DNA of 64,000 nt from Spiroplasma platyhelix PALS-1 (lineage in GTDB: Bacteria > Bacillota_I > Bacilli_A > Mycoplasmatales > VBWQ01). Below are positions 19,673-63,006 of the stretch, in pieces. The DNA lies in contig NZ_CP051215.1 of assembly GCF_021496725.1 (NCBI RefSeq), forward strand, positions 620,001 to 684,000, read 5' to 3'. The position numbers and the translations under genes were made by a program. Every line of letters begins with the position of its first letter. Position 1 is the first letter of the stretch. Below the pieces are notes generated by a model, which worked only from the letters and a program-made list of their open reading frames with translations, did no database searches and had not been told where the DNA came from.

Positions 19673-20623
19673 TTAGTTCACATTATCAATATAGTTAATG
19701 ATATATTGTGCAGCAATGGCTCCATCATTTGTTGCAGTTACGATTTGTCGTAAATTCTTTTTTATGACATCTCCTGCAGCAAATAAACCAGGAATTTTCG
19801 TTTGACAAGTATCATCAACTAAAATATAACCTTCCTCATCACAAACACCTAAATGTCTTACAAACTCACTAATTGGATCACTACCAATATAAGGGAATAA
19901 AGCATCAGTTTTGATTTCACTAACTTCTTTAGTTTCTGTGTTTTCAATTTTTAATCCAACCACTTTATCAAGGTCACCCAGTACTTCAACAACACGATAA
20001 TTGACATGCATATTAATATTAGGATGATTTTTTACTCTTGCAACTGTCTTATCGTCTGCACGAAAACCTTCACGACGGTGAATTAAATTTAAATTATTAG
20101 TCATTCTTGTTAGATATAATGATTCCTCACAAGCAGCATATCCGCCTCCAACAACAGTGATTGTTTTATCTTTAAATAAAAAACCATCGCAAACACCACA
20201 ATAAGAAACACCCTTACCATAGTATTCATCTTCACCAGGAACACCAATTTTCTTTTCAACAGTACCTGTAGCAACAATCACTGCTTTGGCTGTTAATTTT
20301 TTGTTGCCCAGTAAATTGACTGTCTTGCTAGTATGATTAATATCATCGTCAATGCTAACAACTTCATCATAAATAACTTCAACATTTAATTTTTCAATTT
20401 GCTCATGCATCTTTGAAGCTAAAGTTTGACCATCAATAAAATCAAATCCTGGATAGTTTTCAACTTCTGAAGTTCTTGTCATTTTTCCACCAGGTAAAGC
20501 TTTTTCAATAATAACTGTTTTCAAATTAGCTCTTTGAGCATAAATTGCTGCTGTCATTCCTGCTGGACCAGCACCAATGATAATTAAATCATAATTATCT
20601 GTTGCTTTAATATTGCTTTTCAT
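19673..20623 (-). CDS. trxB: Thioredoxin reductase
   Basis: The 316-residue flavoprotein transfers electrons from NADPH to thioredoxin. It has the FAD-binding DLIIIGAGPAGMTAAIYA at the start, the redox pair SYCGVCDG (Cys142 and Cys145; the common form is CATC), NAD(P)-binding VVGGGYAACEE and GLFAAGDV near the end. Start 20623 follows AAAAGGGATG; longer in-frame starts lie inside lgt. The gene overlaps the end of lgt by 17 bases, so translation is probably coupled. Confidence 0.95.
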   Translation of the reverse strand: MKSNIKATDNYDLIIIGAGPAGMTAAIYAQRANLKTVIIEKALPGGKMTRTSEVENYPGFDFIDGQTLASKMHEQIEKLNVEVIYDEVVSIDDDINHTSKTVNLLGNKKLTAKAVIVATGTVEKKIGVPGEDEYYGKGVSYCGVCDGFLFKDKTITVVGGGYAACEESLYLTRMTNNLNLIHRREGFRADDKTVARVKNHPNINMHVNYRVVEVLGDLDKVVGLKIENTETKEVSEIKTDALFPYIGSDPISEFVRHLGVCDEEGYILVDDTCQTKIPGLFAAGDVIKKNLRQIVTATNDGAIAAQYIINYIDNVN

Positions 20624-21812
20624 ATAATCATCCCTTTTTTCTAAATTTTTTGCTTGCAATAAATTGTGCAAATACTAGTAACACGATTCCTAAAATAATT
20701 CATAAAACTGACACTAAAATAGAAGTTCGTACTGAACCAATCATCATGATATCACTTGCATAACGAAAAGGTTCTAAGATTACCCTAATAATACCATAAA
20801 AAATAAAGTATCCTGCTCCCATAGCACCTGTATAAGTTAACTTGTACTGATTAGGATTGTAACTTTGATTTAAAGGTGAAGCATCTTGATAGAACTTGTT
20901 AGTTATCTTTCTGAAAAAATTCTTTTGACTAACAAAAATCTTTTGTACACCATTCATTGTTGGAGTAACTTTAATTGCTTTAAAAGTTCTCAACTTAGTA
21001 TCTTTAATCAAAGACTTTTCTGGTTCAAAATCATAATAAGCTTTTTCTCAACATGATTTCTTTCATTTACGATAAGAATGAAGTTTTTTTACAACCTTTC
21101 AAGGTTGATAGTAGTCACTCTTAACAATTGGTTCTTTAATTCATAATGGTTGATATTTTTCTGCTTCAATCTTTCAAGGTTTCTTACTAAATCAAAATCC
21201 TATCTTAGGAAGAACAAAAATTAAAAATACTCATCCAACTAAAGAAGCAATTGATTCATATAAGAATAATGGATGTCGATAAACTTCAACATGATCATTA
21301 GGATAATGCAAATGATCATTAATTCATGATGGTAGTCATGGAAAAGCTTGACCAGTATCTCAACCTAAAATTTCTTGATTAAAAAAATTACCTCATCTTC
21401 CAATTGCTTGTCCTAACAAGATATTAGGTAAAATACAATCAAGATAAACTCACATTGAAATCTTATATTTTAAAGATGCTCGATAAAAAATAATTAATCC
21501 AACAATCAAGCCAGCAAAAATACCACCTTGAATTGCCATTCCACCTTGTCATACAGCAATCACATCAATAAAGCCATGAACCATATCTGTATGATTTAAA
21601 ACATACCAAAGTCTCGCACCTAACAAGCCACAAGGAATAATGATAAAAACAGATCCTTCAAGTGTTCGTGTTGGAATATTTCTACGATACATTTTAAATC
21701 ATGAAGAAAAAAGCACTACTAAAACTGCAATTCCCATTAAAATTGAATAAATATGAATTGAAGTTCCAGGAATATTCGCAATTGAATCGTTATATCCTGA
21801 AAAAATATGCAC
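20607..21812 (-). CDS. lgt: Prolipoprotein diacylglyceryl transferase
   Basis: A 401-residue integral membrane enzyme that adds diacylglycerol from phosphatidylglycerol to the lipobox cysteine of lipoproteins. Motifs include VWQGGMAIQGGIFAG, LGQAIGRWGNFFNQE (the Lgt signature with the critical Arg and Asn) and, after an insert, RVILEPFRYASD in the last part. A basic cytoplasmic insert of roughly 110 residues rich in Lys and Trp (about 215-325) makes it longer than the 260-290 usual for bacteria, as also seen in some mycoplasma Lgt proteins. The start is GTG at 21812 behind ATAGGTG. Many Trp are UGA. Confidence 0.93.
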
Positions 21813-21837
21813 TATTTAACACCTATATTCTTAATTT

Positions 21838-22785
21838 TTACTTACCATTTTTTAAATTTTCAACAACTTCTTGTTCAAATTGCACTGCACTATCTTCGCC
21901 AGCTTCTTTTAATTTCATACTGATAACAGCAGATGTAATTAAGTCAGCTAAATTTCTTCCTGAAGTAACAGGAAGTTTAATAGTTGGAATCTTAACATTA
22001 AAATATTGTTGAAACTTTAAATTAGTTCCTAAACGATCAATTTTATTTAAAGTGCTACTATTAGCACCAGCTAATTTAATAATCAGTTGAATTTGACTTT
22101 CAGGTAGAACAACATGATATCCATACATTTTTGTAACATCTAAAATACCAATTCCTCTAATCTCAATTAAATTTTTAACCATCTCATTACTGCGACCAAT
22201 AATCTTATTGTTAATTTTTAAGATTTCAATACTGTCATCTCCAATAAATAAATGACCATTACGGATTAATTCCAAAGTTGTTTCTGACTTACCAATCCCA
22301 CTAGCTCCCGTAATTAAAACACCATGACCAAAAATATTAACTAAAGTTCCATGTATACGAGTACCCGGAGCTAAATTTTCAGCAATATATAAAGTAACAG
22401 TATTTGCAAACTCAGAGCTGTCACCAAAAAATTGAATAATTACTACTTTACTTTCTAGTTTTTCAGCAATCTTACATAATTTTTGAGTATGCTTAAAATT
22501 TGGTGTCACAAAAATGGCAGGAATATGATCTTGTAAAATATTTTTAAAATGACTTTCATAAGTATCTGAACTTAAAGTATCAAGATACTCACTTTCTGTA
22601 CTGCTTAATAGGATTACTCTTCTTAAAATTGAAACTCTCTTGCTTTTAAAACCCATCAATTGTAAACCACCACGATTTACACCTGGGATAGTAATTAATA
22701 TCTTATTTAAATCTATATTTTTATTTTGATATAAAACTTTTAAATCAAATTTTTGAATAATATTTTTGATTGTAAAATTTTTCAT
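21838..22785 (-). CDS. hprK: HPr kinase/phosphorylase
   Basis: The 315-residue protein phosphorylates or dephosphorylates Ser46 of HPr, coupling sugar uptake to metabolism. The N-terminal domain has ITIPGVNRGGLQLMGF; the catalytic domain has HGTLVNIFGHGVLITG followed by the P-loop GASGIGKS at 160-167, then IEIRGIGILDVTKMYG, the HPrK signature. Its presence predicts a phosphotransferase system elsewhere in the genome. It heads the hprK-lgt-trxB-whiA cluster with 25 bases to lgt. Confidence 0.95.
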   Translation of the reverse strand: MKNFTIKNIIQKFDLKVLYQNKNIDLNKILITIPGVNRGGLQLMGFKSKRVSILRRVILLSSTESEYLDTLSSDTYESHFKNILQDHIPAIFVTPNFKHTQKLCKIAEKLESKVVIIQFFGDSSEFANTVTLYIAENLAPGTRIHGTLVNIFGHGVLITGASGIGKSETTLELIRNGHLFIGDDSIEILKINNKIIGRSNEMVKNLIEIRGIGILDVTKMYGYHVVLPESQIQLIIKLAGANSSTLNKIDRLGTNLKFQQYFNVKIPTIKLPVTSGRNLADLITSAVISMKLKEAGEDSAVQFEQEVVENLKNGK

Positions 22786-22915
22786 CTCTTCACCTAACGA
22801 CTATTATAATAACTAAATTATACTTTAAAATAAGGTCAAAAGTATCCTTTATTATTAAAATAATCAAGGATTTAATTATAACATATATTCTTGCTAATTC
22901 ACTATTATTTTCAGT

Positions 22916-24532
22916 CTAAGAGTGTTTTTTTGCTTTTAATTTTACTGTTGATTTCTTTGATGGTTCTTTCTTTTCAGTAACAGTTTCACCATGCTCTTTA
23001 TGAATTTTAAAGTTATCAGGAACATCAATTAATTTATCTTTATATTTAATTCAACTCTGAATCAAAATTGGAATTAAAATTAAGGACGAAACAAAATCAA
23101 TCAAGCCAAAGAAAAGGAAATAGAAAATTGAATTACCAGTTAAAGTCGCTACAAGATAGCCTAATCCAATCATTGGTAGAGCAATAGTAAATGCTCGTAA
23201 ACTATTAGTAAAGGATGCTAAAAGTGACTTATTAATTCCTTGATACAAAGTAAAACAAATTAAAGTAAAGGATGCAAAAGGATAAGAAGCAAAACTTAAA
23301 AGCAATCATCAACGATATTGTTGGACATATTCTTCTGGAAAAGCAAACATCAACATCATCTTGTCACCAACAGATGCCAACATAATCAAGACAAAAATAA
23401 ATCAAACAAAGAATAAAATACTACTACGCTTTAAAATTTGTCAAATTCGATTGTATTTTTTGGCGCCAAAATTATAAGCAATCACTGCTCGAGCACCTTG
23501 AGAGATTCCTGTTGCAGCAGAAAATATCAACCCCATTCATGGTGAAATAGACGACATCAATTCTTGTAAAATTGAAACGTTATTATCAATTTTCTGATTA
23601 GGTAAATTGACGACCAGACTCGTAGAAAGGAAAGAAACCACAACAAAAGAAACTCCAGCAATAAAGTTAGGTAGTCCTGCTTTTAAAAACAATCAAATAT
23701 TTTCAAATTTTAAATGAATTAAATTTGATCAACTAAATCTTGTGTAACTAGTTCTAAAACGAAAAACAATGATAAATCCTCAAATTACTTGTACTAATCA
23801 TGAAAAAACAGTTCCAAGCATTGCTCCTTGCATCTTTAAATGACATACTTTCATAAAAAAGATTGCTGCTCCACTATTGATTAAAACTGAAGTAACCATA
23901 ATCAGAACAATTCAACCCATTCTTCCTTCACTACGTAGTAAAGAAACAAAATAGTAACTTAAGAACATTAAAGGTGCTGCAAGCAACATTAAAAATGAGT
24001 AGTCTCAAGCTAAATAATTAGTAATTGGGTTATAAATTCCACCCATCTGACTCCTGATAAAGACGGAATTAAAGCCAGGAAAAATCAAACAAAATATCAT
24101 AAAAGAGATAAAAATTGAAAAGATAATTGTAAACGAAAAACCATTCCCAGTAATCTCATGCATCTTTTTTTCATTTCTTTGTCCAAAAGCAATTGAAAAA
24201 TTCATAGCACAACCCATACCTGCCATAACTGCAAAAGCAAACAGTAAATTATAAGTTTGAGTTGCATATTGCGTTGCAACATTAATAAAAATCTTCATTT
24301 CTTTAAGAGGGATGATATCTACTGTTGTACTTTTCATTTGATTATATAATGCAACATAAAATGGATCTGAACTTAAATCTCCAGCAGCAAATTGTAAAGC
24401 TAATGTCTTATCAATAATATTATAAAATCCTTGAATAAACATAATCAGAACAGTTGGGATACAAAAATATAAAATTGTTAGCCATGGTTTGCCATAACGT
24501 AATTTTTTCTCACGTTCTGTTAATAGATTCAT
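22916..24532 (-). CDS. MATE family efflux transporter
   Basis: A 538-residue multi-helix protein with the MatE layout of two six-helix bundles. LYFCIPTVLIMFIQGFYNIIDKTLALQFA at the start, GMGCAMNFSIAFGQRNEKKMHEITGNG in the first half and GATGISQGARAVIAYNFGAK-like sequence in the second are typical of mycoplasma MATE proteins. It probably exports cationic compounds or drugs using an ion gradient. The C-terminus is a Lys-rich cytoplasmic tail. A paralogue is at 49461-51089. The preceding 100 bases before hprK's terminator region contain nothing else recognisable. Confidence 0.88.
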
Positions 24533-24694: not shown

Positions 24695-24723
24695 TTGACA
24701 AAAAAATTAAATCATTTTACAAA
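24695..24723 (+). promoter_or_regulatory. Putative promoter of the cobalamin-riboswitch/nrd operon
   Basis: TTGACA at 24695-24700 is followed after 17 bases by TACAAA (24718-24723), a weaker -10. It lies about 40 bases before the first helix of the riboswitch. The stretch 24533-24694 upstream is AT-rich and shows no gene. Confidence 0.45.
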
Positions 24724-24762
24724 TATAAATATTAAAAGTAAAATAACCTTACAACTAAAAAA

Positions 24763-24912
24763 TGAAAATTAGATGTTCGGGAAAAAGATGAGAATTCTTT
24801 GCTGTCCCAGCAACTGTAAAGCTGATGAACGTTAGATATACCATTGAAACAATTGTTTTGAGAAGGCTAACTAGTAAAATGAAGCCAAGCCAGTAGACCG
24901 GTCTAATTTTCA
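24763..24912 (+). promoter_or_regulatory. Cobalamin riboswitch aptamer
   Basis: The closing helix P1 is perfect: TGAAAATTAGA (24763-24773) pairs with TCTAATTTTCA (24902-24912). Inside are the conserved blocks of AdoCbl-type riboswitches in the right order: TTCGGGAAAAAGATGAGAAT, then the near-invariant GCTGTCCCAGCAACTGTAA (24811-24829), and the B12 box AAGCCAGTAGACCGGTC-like sequence ending at about 24903 (GCCAAGCCAGTAGACCGGTC). This is a strong match to the cobalamin riboswitch consensus. In all known cases ligand binding represses the downstream gene. Here the downstream operon is class I ribonucleotide reductase. Confidence 0.93.
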
Positions 24913-24956
24913 CAAAGTTACTATTCCTGGGGGTGAATATTTAATTATTTTAAATA

Positions 24957-24994: not shown

Positions 24995-25017
24995 ATAAAA
25001 TAATTTTAATTTCAACG

Positions 25018-25042
25018 AATGCCTCCTATAGGCATTTTTTAG
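25018..25042 (+). terminator. Riboswitch expression-platform terminator / Shine-Dalgarno sequestrator
   Basis: AATGCC (25018-25023) pairs with GGCATT (25031-25036) and runs into TTTTT, an intrinsic terminator just before nrdF. The loop strand CCTCC (25022-25026) is also complementary to the nrdF ribosome binding site GGAGG (25057-25061), and ATTTTTTA downstream can pair with TAAAAAAAT, so the same segment could alternatively hide the translation start. Confidence 0.7.
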
Positions 25043-25067
25043 TTAGTAAAAAAAATGGAGGAAAATA

Positions 25068-26090
25068 ATGATAGAAAATAAAAACAATTATTATCAAAAA
25101 TCTCTTTCACCATTGGAATATGCTAACAATGGATTTAAAGGCAAAATGCGTTCAGTAAACTGAAACTTCATTAATGATGATAAAGATTTAGAAGTCTGAA
25201 CTCGTGTAACACAAAACTTCTGACTACCAGAAAAAATTCCAGTATCAAATGATTTAACTTCATGAAAAAGTTTAACTTTTGAATGACAACAATTAGTTAC
25301 AAGAACATTTACAGGTTTAACACTATTAGATACAATCCAAGCAACTGTTTGTGATACAGCACAAATTCCTCATTCCTTAACTGACCATGAACAAGTTATT
25401 TATGCTAATTTTGCTTTTATGGTTGCTGTTCATGCTCGTGCATATGGAACAATTTTTTCAACTTTATGTTCTAGTGAACAAATTGAAGAAGCTCATGAAT
25501 GAGTTATCAATACAGAAAGTTTACAAAATCGAGCACGCGCATTAATTCCTTATTATTCTAATAAAGATCCATTAAAATCAAAAGTTGCTGCTGCACTTAT
25601 GCCAGGATTTTTATTATATGGGGGATTTTATTTACCATTTTATTTATCAGCTCGTGGTAAGTTATCAAACACTTCTGATATTATTCGATTAATTTTAAGA
25701 GATAAAGTAATTCATAACTACTATAGTGGTTATAAATATCAAAGAAAAGTTAAAAAACTTTCAATAGAAAAGCAACTAGAAATGAAAAAGTTTGTTTTTG
25801 AATTACTAAATCAATTAATTGATTTAGAAAAGAAATATCTAACAGAACTTTATCAAGGTTTTAATTTAGCAGAAGATGCAATTAGATTTAGTTTATATAA
25901 TGCTGGAAAATTCTTACAAAATTTGGGTTATGATTCACCTTTTACTGAAGAAGAAACAAGAATTGCACCAGAAATTTTTACTCAACTATCTGCACGAGCA
26001 GATGAAAATCATGACTTTTTTTCAGGAAATGGTTCATCTTATGTTATGGGAATTAGTGAAGAAACTGAAGATGAAGATTGAGAATTTTAA
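25068..26090 (+). CDS. nrdF: Ribonucleotide reductase R2 (NrdF), metal-free VPK variant
   Basis: The 340-residue protein is clearly NrdF: FTGLTLLDTIQ, YANFAFMVAVHARAYGTIFSTLC, GFLLYGGFYLPFYLSARGKLSNTSDIIRLILRD. In normal NrdF six residues (Asp, Glu, His, Glu, Glu, His) hold a dimetal centre. Here Asp88, His122 and His216 remain but the three Glu are Val119, Pro179 and Lys213. This Val-Pro-Lys set defines the NrdF2/class Ie proteins, shown in Mesoplasma florum to carry a stable DOPA radical on the tyrosine without metal; that tyrosine corresponds to Tyr126 here. The partner NrdI supplies superoxide for the one-time tyrosine hydroxylation. GGAGG precedes the start. First gene of the riboswitch operon. 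Confidence 0.96.
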
Positions 26091-26110: not shown

Positions 26111-28723
26111 ATGCATAATGATGTAATCAAAGTTACAAATGAAAAAATAGTAAAACCTCAAGGAAAAATTTATATTGTTTACTTTTCATCAACTTCTAAC
26201 AATACTCATAGATTTATTCAAAAATTAGAAGTAAAAAATTCAAGAATTCCTTATGACATAAAAGAAGAAATCTTAGTTGATCAAGAGTATGTACTCATTA
26301 CACCAACTTATAGCGGTGGTGGTGAATTTAAAAGTGGCGCTGTTCCAAAGCAAGTAATTAATTTTTTAAATAAAAAACAAAATCGTGATCTTTGTCGTGG
26401 AATAATGGCTTCTGGAAACACAAATTTTGGTAATACATTTGCGATGGCAGGCCCAATTCTTTCAAAAAAATTAAATGTACCCCTACTCTATCAATTTGAA
26501 TTATTAGGAACTAAAAATGATGTAGAAACAATAAAAAATATTTTAGTAGATTTTTGAATAAAACCTGAAAATAAAAAAATTTCAACTCTATCAGGTAATT
26601 TTGAATCTGATGAATATATTACTCTAAATGCAAAAACAAAATTATTTGATTGAGATAAAGATAATTTTAAACTAGATTTTGCTGCAGCAAAATCTTATCT
26701 AAAAAATCACATTATCCCTAATTCAAAAAAATTTAATAGTACCAAAGAACGAATTGAATATTTAGTTAAAAATAAATATTATGATGAAAAAATAATAAAT
26801 AAATATTCAATTGCTAAAATTGAAAATTTAACAAACCAAGCTTATAGTTACAATCATTATTTTCCAACTTTTGTATCTGCTTTAAAATTTTTCAATGCTT
26901 ATGCTTTAAAAAGTTTTGATGGAAAAGAATATTTAGAAAATTATGAAGATCGAGTTATCATGAATGCGTTATTCTTTGGTGATGGCAAAATTAGTAAAGC
27001 AAAAAAAATCTTAAATGAAATAATGTTAGGTAGATTCCAACCAGCTACACCAACCTTCTTAAATGCTGGCAAAAAACAACGTGGTGAATATGTTTCTTGT
27101 TATCTTTTACGCATTGAAGATAACATGGAATCAATCGCTCGTGGTATTTCAACTTCTTTGCAACTTTCAAAATCTGGTGGCGGGGTAGCTTTATGTTTAA
27201 CAAATCTAAGAGAATGTGGTGCACCAATTAAAAATATTGCTAATCAAGCTACAGGTGTAATTCCAGTGATGAAAATTTTAGAAGACTCATTCTCTTATGC
27301 TAATCAATTAGGACAAAGACAAGGAGCAGGTGCAGTTTATTTAAATGCTCATCATCCAGATATTATGTCATTTTTAGATACAAAAAGAGAAAATGCTGAT
27401 GAAAAAATTAGGATTAAATCTTTATCTTTAGGAATAGTAATTCCAAATATCACTTTTGAATTAGCAAAAGATAATAAAGATATGGCACTTTTTAGTCCTT
27501 ATGATATTAAAAAAGTTTATAAAAAATCAATGACTGATATTTCTGTCACTCAAGAATATTACAAGATGTTGAATAATCCAAAAATTAAAAAAACTTTTAT
27601 TAGTGCAAGAAAATTATTTCAAACAATTGCAGAATTACATTTTGAAAGTGGCTATCCCTATTTATTATTTGATGATACAGTAAATAATCGTAATGCTCAT
27701 CCAGGTAGAATTGTTATGAGCAACTTATGTAGTGAAATTATTCAAGTTAGCACAGCTAGCAAATATAATAATGATTTAAGCTTTAAGCATATTGGCCAAG
27801 ATATTTCTTGTAATTTAGGAAGTGTTAATATCGCTAAAATGATGGAAAGTGGTAGTGAATTTTCCCAATCAATTGAAGAAGCAATTTATGCTTTAGATCA
27901 TGTTTCTAGAAATAGTAACTTATCTACTGCACCCTCAATTAAAGAAGGCAATAAAAACAATCATGCTCTTGGTCTAGGAGCAATGAATTTACATGGTTTT
28001 TTAGCAACAAATCATATTTTTTATAACTCTAAAGAAGCCGTTGATTTTACTAATATTTTCTTTTACACTATGGCTTATCATGCTTTTAAAGCTTCAAATA
28101 AATTAGCAGAGCATTTTGGTTCATTTGTTGAATTTAAAAATTCAAAATTTGCTGATGGTTCTTATTTTGATAAATATACTCAATGTGATAAGGAGAAATG
28201 AAAACCAGCTACAAAAAAAATTAAAGAATTATTTGATAAATATCAAATTGAAATTCCCACACAAAATGATTGAAAAAAATTAGTAACAAAAATTAAAACA
28301 ATAGGAATCGCTAATTCTCATTTAATGGCAGTAGCACCAACTGGTTCAATTAGTTATTTATCTGCATGTACTCCAAGTTTACAACCAATTGTATCTCCAG
28401 TTGAAGTTCGTAAAGAAGGCAAATTAGGAAGAGTATATGTTCCAGCTTACAAAATTAATGTTGATAATTTACCTTATTATTTGTCTGGAGCATATGAAAT
28501 TGGACCTAATCCAATTATTGATATCGCTGCAGCAGCACAACAACATGTTGATCAAGCAATATCATTAACTCTCTTTATGACAGACAAAACAACTACACGT
28601 GATTTAAATAAAGCTTATATTAAAGCTTTTAAGCAAGGCTGCTCATCAATTTATTATGTTCGCGTTAGACAAGAAGTTTTAGAAAATAGTGAAAATTATC
28701 AATGTGATGCTTGTGTTATATAA
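26111..28723 (+). CDS. nrdIE: NrdI-NrdE fusion: flavodoxin activator joined to ribonucleotide reductase large subunit
   Basis: One frame of 870 residues, without a stop when UGA is Trp. Residues 1-150 are Nrd[15 protein letters not shown] binds FMN phosphate (Ser26-Thr32), then [23 protein letters not shown] and [18 protein letters not shown]. From about residue 160 it is NrdE, beginning [15 protein letters not shown]. The R1 radical and redox cysteines are present: Cys330 (EYVSCYLL), Cys540 (MSNLCSEI) and Cys567 (ISCNLGSVN), plus the C-terminal pair Cys865/Cys868. No ATG occurs in frame between the NrdI end and residue 284, deep in NrdE, so a separate nrdE start is not evident. NrdI and NrdE are normally separate proteins. 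AAGGAG lies before the start, 20 bases after nrdF. Confidence 0.94.
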
Positions 28724-28787: not shown

Positions 28788-29972
28788 ATGATCAAACTAT
28801 TTAGTTTACTAACATCTATTACATTAGGTTCAACAGGAACAATTTCTGCTGCAACTTACATTTTAGAAAATAATCAAAAAAATGAAGTACCGCCTTGAAT
28901 CAATCAAATGATTCAAGGCAATCCAAATGAAATTAGTGTTGGCTATGATCATTACTTATTAGTTAACAAACATCAAGACAAGCAAGACTATTTTCAACAA
29001 AAAGATTGAATGGATTTTAATCAAAACAAAAACCTTTATCTCTACTTACCAGAAGCAAATAGTATTGATGAAGCAATTCAAAATGTGGTAGTTGATGATA
29101 GTGCAAAAACTTGAACTGTTGGAATTGAAACACCAATTACTTGAACAAAAATTAATAACACAACTTATACTAATAATAGATTTATTACTCAAGATACTTC
29201 TGTAGCTAACATTGCTTTAATGGAAAATGACAAATTTAAAGAAATTATAAATAGTAACAAATGAGATTCTCTAACAACGCAAGAAAAAGAAATGTTTAAG
29301 CAATATGGCAGTTTACCTTCTTCAAGACAAGGAAAAAGTCAAGATTGATGAAATACTAATCAATGAGAAAAAAACCTTTCAACAGAAAAAAATCTTGAAT
29401 CAAGTTGAGTTAAAGATAAAAATCAAAAATTTTCTCAATTAGATTTATACAACAGATGAATTAATCAATCTGTTATTGGCATGAATGTTCCATTAAGTTT
29501 GATTGAAAAAAATTCTTTTACTTTACAGCAAACTAAAATTAATCATCTTTTTCTGTTTCAAAGCACAATAAATCAAGTTTGAAACGATAAGAATGGAAAT
29601 CTAAAAAATATCTTTACTCCTCATTGAGGTTTCACTCTAAAAATTATTAATGATGGAAATACTCTTTTTAGAACACCACAAATAATTAATTTAAAAAATT
29701 CTTTTAAAGAAGAAGTTATTAATAATTATCTAAACCAAAAAAAATACTTTTCATTTAACAGTCAAGAAACTACTAAGTTTACAAATAACTATTTAACTGG
29801 TTATAAAAACTATCAATCTTTAAATATTCATTCTATTTTTGTAATAATTTCATCACTATTAATTCTATTCTTATTTATATTTTCTTTAAATTATTCAAGT
29901 AAATATTTAATCAACAGAAGAAAAAACACATCTCAGGAGCTAAATAATGAAAAAAGAAAAAAATCAATTTAA
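28788..29972 (+). CDS. Surface protein with N-terminal signal and C-terminal membrane anchor
   Basis: The 394-residue product starts with a secretion signal (MIKLFSLLTSITLGSTGTIS, about 1-22), has a long extracellular part rich in Asn, Lys and Trp (nearly all UGA) and ends with one transmembrane helix (about 343-365, SIFVIISSLLILFLFIFSL) plus a basic tail, i.e. a type I membrane protein. There is no lipobox Cys. I recognise no domain. It follows nrdIE by 64 bases with GAGG before the start and overlaps the DUF4430 gene, so it sits in the cobalamin-controlled operon. A role as a cobalamin-related surface receptor is inferred from context only. Confidence 0.85.
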
Positions 29973-30420
29973 AAATAAAAAAAATTTTTGAAGATGAGTT
30001 GCAGGTAGTTTATTTCTAATTTTATTTGGTACTTCAGCAATAATTAATATTGCTTATTTACCAAAATACTTTGTTCTAAAAAATCAAAATGAACTAGAAA
30101 AAAATCAATTACTAAATATTAATGTTTCTGCTTATAACGAAGAAAATGGTAGTACTAAATTATTTACTTATATATATCAAACAACTCAAAAAACATTAGC
30201 TAATTTAATGATACAAGATTCCAAAACTTTTTATTTAACTCACAATGGGACATGACTTGACGCAATTAGTTATTATAATAATCAAGAAAAACAAACCATC
30301 GCATCAAAAGATCCTTATTATTGAATGGTTTACAATAATGGTGAGATATCTGGTGTTGGAATTGCTGACTTGCTTATCCATAACGGTGATAAAATAGAAT
30401 TACGTTACCAACATTATTAA
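29947..30420 (+). CDS. Membrane-anchored DUF4430/transcobalamin-like protein
   Basis: The 157-residue protein has one N-terminal transmembrane helix (about 16-38) after a basic start, then an extracellular domain. The domain end DPYYWMVYNNGEISGVGIADLLIHNGDKIELRY matches the DUF4430 / transcobalamin C-terminal-like fold, where YW...NG...VG..D..+.+GD.+E.RY is characteristic; TWLDAISYYN matches the upstream TLLDAL-type segment. Relatives of this domain bind cobalamin in transcobalamin and intrinsic factor and occur in B12-regulated bacterial loci. It overlaps the preceding gene by 26 bases with AGGAG eight bases before the ATG. Last gene of the riboswitch operon; no clear terminator follows. Confidence 0.78.
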
Positions 30421-31635: not shown

Positions 31636-33819
31636 TTAGGCAGATGGATTTTCTCCTTCGCCTGGTTGTTCTGGATTAGTTGGAATAAGTTTATCTAATT
31701 TTTCATCCATTGATGTAAGTTTATCATTTACAGCAGTTTGATTAGCATCAATTTTTGCAATTAATGCTGCTTGATTAGCATCAATTTTCCCAATTAATGC
31801 TGTTTGACCTTCCTCAATCTTAGCAATTGAATCCGCCATACCTTGCACAGCAGTAGTATTTGCATCCACTTTATCTGATACTTGTCCAAGAGTTTCTGTC
31901 AATGCTGCTTGAGCTTGTTCAATCTTAGCAATTGAATCCGCCATACCTTGCACAGCAGTAGTATTTGCATCCACTTTATCTGATACTTGTCCAAGAGTTT
32001 CTGTCAATGCTGTTTGACCTTCCTCAATCTTAGTGATTGAATCCGCCATACCTTGCACAGCAGTAGTATTTGCATCCAATTTATCTGATATTTGTCCAAG
32101 AGTTTCTGTCAATGCTGCTTGATTTGCATCAATTTTATCATTCAATGCTGTTTGACCTTCCTCAATCTTAGTGATTGAATCCGCCATACCTTGCACAGCA
32201 GTAGTATTTGCATCCACTTTATCTGATACTTGTCCAAGAGTTTCTGTCAATGCTGTTTGACCTTCCTCAATCTTAGTGATTGAATCCGCCATTCCATCCA
32301 CTGAAGCCTTAGCTGCATCTACTTTCTCACCCATCGTTGCTTGACCTTCTTCAATCTTAGTAATTGAATCCGCCATACCATCCACTGAAGCCTTAGCCGC
32401 ATCTACTTTCTCACCCATCGTTGCTTGACCTTCTTCAATCTTAGTAATTGAATCCGCCATACCATCCACTGAAGCCTTAGCTGCATCTACTTTCTCACCC
32501 ATCGTTGCTTGACCTTCTTCAATCTTAGTAATTGAATCCGCCATACCATCCACTGAAGCCTTAGCCGCATCTACTTTCTCACCCATCGTTGCTTGACCTT
32601 CTTCAATCTTAGTAATTGAATCCGCCATACCATCCACTGAAGCCTTAGCTGCATCTACTTTCTCACCCATCGTTGCTTGACCTTCCTCAATCTTAGTGAT
32701 TGAATCCGCCATACCATCCACTGAAGCCTTAGCTGCATCTACTTTCTCACCCATCGTTGCTTGACCTTCTTCAATCTTAGTAATTGAATCCGCCATACCA
32801 TCCACTGAAGCCTTAGCTGCATCTACTTTCTCACCCATCGTTGCTTGACCTTCTTCAATCTTAGTAATTGAATCCGCCATACCATCCACTGAAGCCTTAG
32901 CTGCATCTACTTTCTCACCCATCGTTGCTTGACCTTCTTCAATCTTAGTAATTGAATCCGCCATACCATCCACTGAAGCCTTAGCCGCATCTACTTTCTC
33001 ACCCATCGTTGCTTGACCTTCTTCAATCTTAGTAATTGAATCCGCCATACCATCCACTGAAGCCTTAGCCGCATCTACTTTCTCACCCATCGTTGCTTGA
33101 CCTTCTTCAATCTTAGTAATTGAATCCGCCATACCATCCACTGAAGCCTTAGCCGCATCTACTTTCTCACCCATCGTTGCTTGACCTGCTTCAACCTTAG
33201 CAATTGAATCTGCCATTCCATCAAGTTTGTCAAGCTTATCTAGTTTGTCAAGTTTAGCAACTTTTTCAAGTAATAAAGCTTGATCTTGCCCAATTTTTTC
33301 TACTTCCTCAAGAATTTTTTCAGTGTTATATTCTTGTCTGCAACTAATTTTTTCAACAATTTTAGCAAGAGTACATACTACTTTGCTAGTTTTATCAACT
33401 AATTTACTAATTTCGCTAATATCACATTTGCTATCACAATCTTTTTTACAACTATCATTTTCATCAACAAGTTTAATAAGATTACAAATTATCTTACCAA
33501 GTTTGTCAACTGCTTTATTAATATCACAAGTAGCTTCGCAATCTTTTTTATTTTTGTCATTTTCGTTTTCACAACCAGATTGAACAAGAGTATTAACTAC
33601 CTTAGTAAGTTTGTCAATTACTTTACACATTTCATTAGTACTATCATCTACGATTTGATAATCGTCAACTCCAGTAATCATTTGATCAAGTTTAGAAACT
33701 ACTAAATCAAGTTTACCTACCATTCCATTAAGGTCATCAGTTTCATTCATTCTTCTTCCATCTTCAATATATTGTTTAGAATAAGGTGCATCTCCAGATA
33801 CTTTTATTAAGCGGCTCAT
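31636..33819 (-). CDS. Large coiled-coil repeat protein, no signal peptide
   Basis: The 727-residue protein starts MSRLIKVSGDAPYSKQYIED at 33819, behind a strong GGAGGG; an upstream in-frame ATG would place that site inside the gene. Residues about 30-170 hold two Cys-rich related blocks (KKDCEATCDINKAVDKLGKI and KKDCDSKCDISEISKLVDKT). Then come about eleven near-identical 28-residue units with core DGMADSITKIEEGQATMGEK, then degenerate units with TALTETLGQVSDKVDANTTA, ending PTNPEQPGEGENPSA. The heptad-like pattern predicts a very long coiled coil. No signal peptide, lipobox or membrane helix is visible. Function unknown; the repeats suggest size variation by recombination and a structural or surface/cytoskeletal role. 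Confidence 0.88.
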   Translation of the reverse strand: MSRLIKVSGDAPYSKQYIEDGRRMNETDDLNGMVGKLDLVVSKLDQMITGVDDYQIVDDSTNEMCKVIDKLTKVVNTLVQSGCENENDKNKKDCEATCDINKAVDKLGKIICNLIKLVDENDSCKKDCDSKCDISEISKLVDKTSKVVCTLAKIVEKISCRQEYNTEKILEEVEKIGQDQALLLEKVAKLDKLDKLDKLDGMADSIAKVEAGQATMGEKVDAAKASVDGMADSITKIEEGQATMGEKVDAAKASVDGMADSITKIEEGQATMGEKVDAAKASVDGMADSITKIEEGQATMGEKVDAAKASVDGMADSITKIEEGQATMGEKVDAAKASVDGMADSITKIEEGQATMGEKVDAAKASVDGMADSITKIEEGQATMGEKVDAAKASVDGMADSITKIEEGQATMGEKVDAAKASVDGMADSITKIEEGQATMGEKVDAAKASVDGMADSITKIEEGQATMGEKVDAAKASVDGMADSITKIEEGQATMGEKVDAAKASVDGMADSITKIEEGQTALTETLGQVSDKVDANTTAVQGMADSITKIEEGQTALNDKIDANQAALTETLGQISDKLDANTTAVQGMADSITKIEEGQTALTETLGQVSDKVDANTTAVQGMADSIAKIEQAQAALTETLGQVSDKVDANTTAVQGMADSIAKIEEGQTALIGKIDANQAALIAKIDANQTAVNDKLTSMDEKLDKLIPTNPEQPGEGENPSA
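32303..33226 (-). repeat. About eleven tandem 84-bp coding repeats
   Basis: Eleven copies of an 84-base unit lie head to tail inside the coiled-coil gene. Copies differ at only a few third-codon positions (for example GCT/GCC in the Ala-Ala-Lys stretch, ATTCCA/ATACCA), showing recent duplication or gene conversion. Confidence 0.93.
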
Positions 33820-34096
33820 ATTAAACCCTCCTTTGGTATAATTTCTTTTTTTACACATTGATTATATATATGGATTTTTTTATTGTCATATTAGCAACAA
33901 TAAGAAGTATGCTTTATCTTAATAAACTAAGAACAAAAAAGAAAAAAATATTAAAAAAGTATCTAAAAGCAATTAATTAAGCAAACTAATTGCTAATTTT
34001 TATCTTGAAAAAAATAACTTTCTCTTAACTATTTTTCATTTTTTGATTAAAATTAATAATACATAAAATCAAAATAAAGAAAGGGTTGGAAGTAAT

Positions 34097-59897: not shown

Positions 59898-59964
59898 ATA
59901 AAAAATAAACTTAATATTGCTTTTTTATTTTTAACCATTGCTTTTTCTCAAAAAAGGAGAAAAA

Positions 59965-62900
59965 ATGAAAGAAAAAATAGAACCCTATGTTGTCTATGCA
60001 ACAATAGATGATTTAAATAATGAAGCAAGAACCCGTGCAAACAATGATGGTTTGATAAATAATAGTCTTAATCTTTTATCAAACGACTATCAAAGTTTTA
60101 AAAGTACGACTAATGCTACATTAAATAATAAACAAAATAAAAATGATAATACATTAATTACAACTAATAAAACTGTTGTCGGAGCCATCAATGAATTAAA
60201 ATCAGTCAACGACACTCAAACAACAAACATCAATCAAAATACTGGTGACATCAATAATATTAAATCAGACTATATTAAAGCAAGTGATCTAGGAAACGAA
60301 CTAGATACTAAACAAGACAAAACTGATGATGGCCTAAACACGACCGACAAAACCGTCGTTGGAGCCATCAACGAAATCAAATCAGTCAACGACACTCAAA
60401 CAACAAACATCAACCAAAACACTGCCGATATAACTGAAATCAAAACAGACTATGTTAAAGGTTCTGATCTAGGTAACCAACTAGACATAAAACAAAACAA
60501 AACTGATGATGGCCTAAACACGACCGACAAAACCGTCGTTGGAGCCATCAACGAAATCAAATCAGTCAACGACACTCAAACAACAAACATCAACCAAAAT
60601 ACTACTAACATTAGCCAAAACACTAATGACATTAATCAAATCAAAACAGACTATGTTAAAAGTTCTGATCTAGGAAACGAACTAGATACTAAACAAGACA
60701 AAACTGACAATGAACTAAACACAACCAACAAAACCGTCGTTGGAGCTATCAACGAAATCAAATCAGTCAACGACACTCAAACAACAAACATCAACCAAAA
60801 TACTACTAACATTAGCCAAAACACTAATGACATTAATCAAATCAAAACAGACTATGTTAAAGGATCTGATCTAGGTAACCAACTAGACATAAAACAAAAC
60901 AAAACTGATGATGGCCTAAACACAACAATTAAAACAGTTGTAGGAGCCATCAACGAAATCAAATCAGTCAACGACACTCAAACAACAAACATCAACCAAA
61001 ACACTGCCGATATAACTGAAATCAAAACAGACTATGTTAAAAGTTCTGATCTAGGAAACGAACTAGATACTAAACAAGACAAAACTGATGATGGCCTAAA
61101 CACGACCGACAAAACCGTCGTTGGAGCTATCAACGAAATCAAATCAGTCAACGACACTCAAACAACAAACATCAACCAAAACACTGCCGATATAACTGAA
61201 ATCAAAACAGACTATGTTAAAGGTTCTGATCTAGGTAACCAACTAGACATAAAACAAAACAAAACTGATGATGGCCTAAACACGACCGACAAAACCGTCG
61301 TTGGAGCCATCAACGAAATCAAATCAGTCAACGACACTCAAACAACAAACATCAACCAAAATACTACTAACATTAGCCAAAACACTAATGACATTAATCA
61401 AATCAAAACAGACTATGTTAAAAGTTCTGATCTAGGAAACGAACTAGATACTAAACAAGACAAAACTGACAATGAACTAAACACAACCAACAAAACCGTC
61501 GTTGGAGCCATCAACGAAATCAAATCAGTCAACGACACTCAAACAACAAACATCAACCAAAACACTACTAACATTACCCAAAACACTAATGACATTAATC
61601 AAATCAAAACAGACTATGTTAAAAGTTCTGATCTAGGAAACGAACTAGATACTAAACAAGACAAAACTGATGATGGCCTAAACACGACCGACAAAACCGT
61701 CGTTGGAGCCATCAACGAAATCAAATCAGTCAACGACACTCAAACAACAAACATCAACCAAAATACTACTAACATTAGCCAAAACACTAATGACATTAAT
61801 CAAATCAAAACAGACTATGTTAAAAGTTCTGATCTAGGAAACGAACTAGATACTAAACAAGACAAAACTGACAATGAACTAAACACAACCAACAAAACCG
61901 TCGTTGGAGCCATCAACGAAATCAAATCAGTCAACGACACTCAAACAACAAACATCAACCAAAACACTACTAACATTACCCAAAACACTAATGACATTAA
62001 TCAAATCAAAACAGACTATGTTAAAAGTTCTGATCTAGGAAACGAACTAGATACTAAACAAGACAAAACTGACAATGAACTAAACACAACCAACAAAACC
62101 GTCGTTGGAGCTATCAACGAAATCAAATCAGTCAACGACACTCAAACAACAAACATCAACCAAAATACTACTAACATTAGCCAAAACACTAATGACATTA
62201 ATCAAATCAAAACAGACTATGTTAAAGGATCTGATCTAGGAAACGAACTAGATACTAAACAAGACAAAAACGATACTTCATTAGCAACATCTAATAAAAC
62301 TGTTGTTGGTGCTATCAATGAACTAAATACTATTAAAGTAAGCGACATTGACTTTGAAAGCTTCCAAGAAAGTGTTCTTCAATATCAAAATATTACAAAT
62401 AACGCTTTAAACAACAAGCAAGATAAATATGATGTTGATTTAACAACTTCAGATATAACTGTTGTTGGAGCTATCAATGAATTAAAAATAATTTCTGATA
62501 ACCAAACAACAAGCATCAATACTAACACTAATGATATAAATAACATTCAAACAAACTATATGAAAACTTCTACTGCAAATAGTGCTTTAGCTTTAAAACA
62601 AAATATCACTGATAACGCTCTAAACACAACAAATAAGACTATTGTTGGAGCCATCAATGAAATTAAAACAAGTGCTCAAATTTGAACTGCTGTTGGAACA
62701 AGTGTAAATGCAAGAACATGAAATTACAATTTAACAACCAATAAAAAATATCGAATTGCTTACAATTGAAGTGCAAGTGACACTACAAGTAAAATCTACA
62801 AAGAATTTACATGAACTGGAACTAATATCTCACTTGAAACTTATAGTGACACATTTCCTTCTATATACATTCAACTACTTAACCTTACTCTATTAGGTAG

Positions 62901-63006
62901 TGCAAATGTTGTTGAATTAATAGCAACAAGCACAGGAATTCAAATTAGTACTAAAATAGGTAGTTCAACAATTGGACGAATTATTGCGTTAGAACAAGCC
63001 TCTTAA
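59965..63006 (+). CDS. Large VVGAINE repeat protein, phage-tail-fibre-like
   Basis: A 1013-residue protein. Residues 1-60 are the family module (VYATIDDLNNEARTRANNDG). Then come fourteen VVGAINE/IVGAINE units, the central ones nearly identical, with linker TDYVKSSDLGNELDTKQDKT and two lengths, 60 and 67 residues, the longer having an extra TNISQNTN segment. The C-terminal 110 residues (WTAVGTSVNARTWNYNLTTN onwards) form an Ile/Thr-rich likely beta-structured domain ending GRIIALEQAS. Shaft-plus-tip organisation mimics bacteriophage tail fibres. No signal peptide. Start 59965 follows AAAGGAG. Repeats could give length variation. Confidence 0.88.
60350..62250 (+). repeat. Tandem 180/201-bp coding repeats
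   Basis: At least ten units of 180 or 201 bases repeat inside the large GAINE protein, many base-identical over more than 100 positions. The two unit lengths alternate irregularly, consistent with unequal exchange. Confidence 0.92.

Follow-up and report, generated by a model that had tools for sequence, protein, structure and literature searches.

A class Ie RNR operon behind a predicted cobalamin riboswitch in Spiroplasma platyhelix, probably a B12-repressed fallback for NrdJ

Background

Class Ie RNR does not need metal, and its VPK enzymes have been described in 128 genomes of Mycoplasmatales, nearly all with the gene order nrdFIE (PMC11846895). The role of these enzymes is usually argued from metal starvation; the genome studied here suggests a fallback which is switched by B12 and is itself free of both B12 and metal. 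Other B12-independent RNRs are found under the control of a B12 element, as it is the case for nrdABS of Streptomyces. The logic which we propose below has also been suggested for NrdDG and NrdJ in delta-proteobacteria (PMC545781). Two further features are already known: the kissing loop between L5 and L13 of cobalamin riboswitches (PMC9600662) and the vitamin B12 transporter ECF-CbrT, with structure 6fnp (PMC5997447). We have searched the open-licence PMC papers for a class Ie enzyme under B12 control and for a cobalamin riboswitch in Spiroplasma, and found neither, nor any B12-independent RNR so controlled in a mollicute.

We have analysed a stretch of 64,000 nt from S. platyhelix PALS-1 (NZ_CP051215.1, positions 620,001–684,000), which we call the window. 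Positions given without a prefix refer to it.

Results and discussion

The NrdF protein

The nrdF gene is found in positions 25068..26090 of the + strand. Its frame is open in code 4, it codes for 340 aa and TGA is read as Trp seven times. The gene is recognized as a class Ie (VPK) R2 protein from its open reading frame, its structure matches and the alignment of its residues. The top PDB matches are 6gp2, 6gp3, 8bt3 and 8bt4 (E 3e-200, 667 bits), and its closest solved relative is NrdF of Mesoplasma florum (6gp2). No further NrdF was found by homology search in the genome, which is a single contig of 744,499 bases.

At positions 88, 119, 122, 126, 179, 213 and 216 the alignment gives D, V, H, Y, P, K and H. 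The aligned loci form three clean groups without intermediates: 66 loci, many of them duplicates of the same gene, have the VPK pattern D-V-H-Y-P-K-H; 63 have the canonical pattern D-E-H-Y-E-E-H; the other 9 are D-Q-H-Y-S-K-H (QSK). An earlier, sequence-only reading of this gene had claimed that the Glu ligands are replaced by Val119, Pro179 and Lys213, while Asp88, His122, His216 and Tyr126 are retained. The alignment agrees with it in every detail, and Glu, which that reading had named as a reason to give it up, is absent from all three positions. The likeness which it saw to the NrdF2/class Ie pattern of M. florum is well supported by the VPK signature and by the solved relatives (6gp2). 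Its numbering of Tyr126 and Lys213 also holds: in PMC8902622 the class Ie residues are numbered Asp88, Tyr126 and Lys213. Gene order is also that of the published enzymes (nrdFIE, PMC11846895), with nrdF followed by nrdI and nrdE as one fused gene.

The assignment to the class Ie RNR beta subunits, VPK variant, is well supported by these residues and matches. By homology to 6gp2 and 8bt3, Tyr126 would carry a DOPA radical without metal. Since class Ie enzymes of the VPK type are well documented and widespread in Mycoplasmatales, the protein by itself is an ordinary member of its family.

The nrdI-nrdE fusion

The next gene, in positions 26111..28723 of the + strand, is a fusion of nrdI and nrdE with 870 aa in one frame without any stop (PF07972, TIGR00333, TIGR04170). 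The NrdI flavodoxin domain occupies residues 23–142 and a complete NrdE residues 168–870, which match TIGR04170 over its full length. In G001, which belongs to the same genus as the window, nrdI ends in NDGENE followed by a stop and translation restarts with MAKITTLSGN; the fusion has a short linker instead. Seven of the eight nrdF-bearing genomes of the family have the fusion. Its absence from G001 points either to two origins or to one split. We found no published NrdI-NrdE fusion in the open-licence PMC papers. An apparent fusion in Bifidobacterium from bees (L111, L112) was discarded. It arose only because TGA had been translated as Trp; in code 11 nrdI ends in a stop.

The fusion invites a bolder reading, which we hold only tentatively and think rather doubtful. 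The backup RNR would be fully cofactor-independent: repressed by B12, free of metal and with its activating flavoprotein NrdI tethered to NrdE, so that the DOPA radical would be generated or restored within the working complex and no separate activase would be required. A natural NrdI-NrdE fusion is in any case a tool for the study of DOPA formation.

The leader RNA

Upstream of nrdF there is a cobalamin (B12) riboswitch aptamer, RF00174, in positions 24754..24920 of the + strand. It matches the covariance model over its full length (1–189) with 90.2 bits (gathering 31.5, E 5.3e-21), over the curated threshold, and it ends 147 nt before the start of nrdF. Loop L5 (UGUCCCA) can be read from the sequence in 24803..24809 (+). 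The aptamer is followed in 24922..24939 (+) by the P13/L13 hairpin (UAUUC-CUGGGGGU-GAAUA). Its loop CUGGGGG is complementary to L5 as CUGGG/CCCAG, a predicted kissing loop. An intrinsic terminator, GAATGCCTCCTATAGGCATTT with a T-tract, is found in 25017..25041 (+), 30 nt before the ATG of nrdF (−8.0 kcal/mol); terminator-like matches are barely over chance in this region, 2 found vs 1.0 expected. Relatives likewise have a hairpin and a T-tract between the aptamer and nrdF, with different sequences. The kissing loop and the expression platform of a cobalamin riboswitch are thus present by prediction, from the complementarity and from the downstream terminator.

L13 has two predicted partners: L5 with −8.9 kcal/mol and the 5' arm of the terminator with −10.1 kcal/mol, the latter as an antiterminator. 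When each L13 is paired with its own terminator arm in eleven leaders, the energies add up to −93.7 kcal/mol vs a permuted mean of −62.8 kcal/mol (p 5e-5), in a test with hand-picked arms and with related leaders which are not independent. The pairing is weak in G005. Judging from these sequences, the pairing of L13 with the terminator arm tends to covary across relatives.

A promoter-like TTTACA-17-TAAAAT lies directly upstream of the leader (24716..24744, +). It has 10/12 matches and is weak evidence: such sites are not over chance, 36 found vs 43.6 expected in shuffles.

A separate feature joins both ends of the leader. Its 5' end, AACTAAAAAATG in positions 24753..24764 (+), is the reverse complement of 25033–25044, which comprises the T-tract of the terminator and bases beyond it. 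The 12-nt match is perfect (shuffle p 0.005) and may form a long-range closing helix, with a pair probability of about 0.3–0.9. The same complementarity is found in G001, G003, G004, G006, G008, G174, G177, G185, G191, G204, G209, G216 and G217. It has 12 nt here vs 14–15 nt in G216 and G217, and its sequence differs between clades. The helix is predicted in the read-through mRNA of all seven leaders folded; in G000 and G001 it would rival the 3' arm of the terminator. Only some other B12 riboswitches have this arrangement, and single cases are mostly not significant alone.

Other B12 genes in the genome

The same genome has a B12-dependent class II RNR, NrdJ, in C1:725531–728068. It scores well over the cut-offs of both its profiles: 1318 bits for NF005991 (cut-off 854) and 562 bits for TIGR02504 (cut-off 400). 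There is also a CobA-type adenosyltransferase, PF02572, with 166 bits. Profile search did not find the PF01923 adenosyltransferase in the family, which might be taken as a gap; we dismissed it, since all nine genomes of the family have the CobA type. NrdJ may be the sole B12 enzyme of the genome, because no PF02310 B12-binding domain was found there by profile search.

A second cobalamin riboswitch, C1:225745–225912, precedes a 189-aa membrane protein (P0004) which is CbrT-like. Its family profile has a single PDB match, 6fnp (6fnp_A), the ECF-CbrT B12 transporter, with E 1.4e-13, which agrees with a relationship to CbrT. P0004 falls under the cut-off of Pfam ECF_trnsprt.

Distribution among relatives

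We have surveyed 320 genomes of the order, and 104 of them have a class Ie-like nrdF with at least 73% identity. A cobalamin riboswitch over threshold is found 122–353 nt upstream of nrdF in 17 of these 104 genomes, which belong to seven genera and two families. An intact NrdJ is present in 13 of the 17, vs 4 of the 87 without a riboswitch at nrdF (p 4e-10, Fisher test, which ignores phylogeny). Three of the 17 have a broken NrdJ; when remnants are counted in, the figures become 16/17 vs 6/87 (p 4e-13, again ignoring phylogeny). The exceptions on one side are G075, G188, G218 and G302, which have nrdF and NrdJ without a riboswitch at nrdF. On the other side are G003, G004, G005 and G204, where the riboswitch is found at nrdF and NrdJ is absent or broken. 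G204 has NrdJ in fragments and a weaker riboswitch of 38 bits.

The sequence-only reading had the enzyme serve when the host withholds iron and manganese. We find no support for this. What precedes the operon is a cobalamin riboswitch, in a genome with NrdJ, CobA and a CbrT-like gene. One might still suppose that class Ie RNR is mainly a means of surviving such withholding and that the riboswitch is incidental or a fine-tuning device. The enzyme class is metal-independent (PMC11846895) and a canonical Fe/Mn NrdF was not found in the genome, as this would have it. However, the upstream cis-element belongs to a cobalamin-sensing family, its presence tracks NrdJ and no metal-responsive element was noticed, so we consider this explanation unlikely.

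The four genomes with a riboswitch and a broken or missing NrdJ demonstrate that the element can outlive its purpose. It could then be a relic of ancestral B12 regulation here as well, with nrdF-nrdIE always on. We find this very improbable: the aptamer is full-length with 90 bits, and this genome has an intact L5, L13 and terminator as well as intact NrdJ, CobA and transporter genes. Relatives which have lost the B12 enzyme, and with it all or part of the riboswitch, constitute a comparative series.

NrdJ is missing from G192, G197, G198 and G199, which have only a sub-threshold cobalamin-like element at nrdF. This reduced element (L026, L027, L034 and L030 for G192, G197, G198 and G199) has a CCAGCACCTGT core and scores 24–27 bits. 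Its long variable arm is shortened; L13 and the terminator are intact. Among its columns 74% are invariant, vs 44–52% in the flanks. From its sequence, it may be a retuned riboswitch or one with a new ligand.

Across the order, B12 riboswitches precede the CbrT-like family, proteins of the DUF4430 type and class Ie nrdF. In one genome, G174, a cobalamin riboswitch is also found ahead of nrdD and nrdG, an anaerobic class III RNR (L081:2179–5239): two B12-independent RNRs are apparently controlled by B12 in one genome. Mesoplasma grammopterae has a 2dG-I riboswitch ahead of its class Ie nrdF (L097:5832–5895), in the same position as the cobalamin riboswitch of Spiroplasma. One operon appears to be wired to different metabolites, depending on the lineage.

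Downstream genes and history of the locus

Two genes for membrane-anchored proteins follow the RNR genes on the + strand. The first, in 28788..29972, codes for 394 aa without any Pfam match; its relatives in G001, G174 and G185 (49%, 36% and 31% identity) are also found behind B12 riboswitches. The second, in 29947..30420, is a DUF4430 protein of 157 aa (PF14478, E 1e-8), with nothing useful in the PDB (best E 1). Its relatives are found behind B12 riboswitches, and in some of them a CbrT-like gene adjoins. The DUF4430 protein may act in B12 capture, a role which we do not extend to B12 binding.

Window positions 19673–24532 and L071:87–4950 of G001 have their upstream genes in identical order: thioredoxin-reductase-like, Lgt-like, HPr-kinase-like and MATE. 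At this locus G001 has a riboswitch ahead of genes related to those for the 394-aa and DUF4430 proteins; its nrdF is elsewhere, with its own riboswitch. The two riboswitches of G001 are 85% identical. In the window the RNR genes are placed between the riboswitch and the two downstream genes.

The riboswitch might therefore serve mainly the 394-aa and DUF4430 genes, presumably related to B12, with the RNR operon inserted by recombination. In G001 and G002 a riboswitch does precede relatives of both genes with no RNR between them, and in G001 the locus shares its upstream genes with the window. Against this, a separate riboswitch lies directly ahead of nrdF at another locus of G001 and in relatives from several other genera: the insertion does not account for the regulation of nrdF. 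As the main purpose of the riboswitch we give this explanation little credit; recombination may explain the origin of the arrangement in the window.

Farther downstream, the window contains a protein of 740 aa (31636–33858, −) made mostly of near-identical repeats (SITKIEEGQATMGEKVDAAKASVDGMAD...), coiled-coil-like. Another one of 1022 aa (59938–63006, +) has no convincing Pfam match and lies in the strongest AT-skew stretch of the window.

A probable fallback switched by B12

The riboswitch, NrdJ, the adenosyltransferase and the CbrT-like component suggest that the operon is regulated by a shortage of B12. We consider it highly probable that nrdF-nrdIE is a metal-free fallback for NrdJ, repressed by B12 and controlled by the riboswitch. 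The circuit which we infer comprises ligand binding, a direction of switching, DOPA formation and a switch of enzymes in the cell. With plentiful AdoCbl, the aptamer would bind it and the L5-L13 kissing loop would form; with L13 held by L5, the terminator hairpin would be free to form and nrdF-nrdIE would be off. B12-dependent NrdJ would then supply the dNTPs. When B12 is short, L13 would pair with the 5' arm of the terminator and transcription would read through, so that the class Ie enzyme could take over, without B12 or metal. An OFF switch is the simplest reading of the modelled leader.

Comparison with known systems

The nrdJ-cbrS-cbrT-pduO cluster of Lactobacillus delbrueckii with its ECF-CbrT (PMC5997447) also has a CbrT-like S component, which is close to nrdJ in several of our relatives. 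It differs from the genome of the window, where the CbrT-like gene and nrdJ are apart, the adenosyltransferase is of the CobA type (PF02572, with PF01923 absent) and the S component is found behind a riboswitch. The class Ie RNR of M. florum (NrdF2/R2e-VPK; 6gp2, 8bt3) has the same seven active-site residues, the same gene order nrdF-nrdI-nrdE and a high sequence similarity. Our operon differs by the fusion of nrdI and nrdE and by the cobalamin riboswitch in its leader. Streptomyces nrdABS is alike in that a B12 riboswitch precedes an RNR which does not need B12, and NrdJ is present in the same genome. This is also the case for NrdDG and NrdJ in delta-proteobacteria (PMC545781): a B12-independent RNR is found behind a B12 riboswitch, in genomes with NrdJ. 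In S. platyhelix the enzyme under such control is a metal-free class Ie RNR, and its host is a mollicute.
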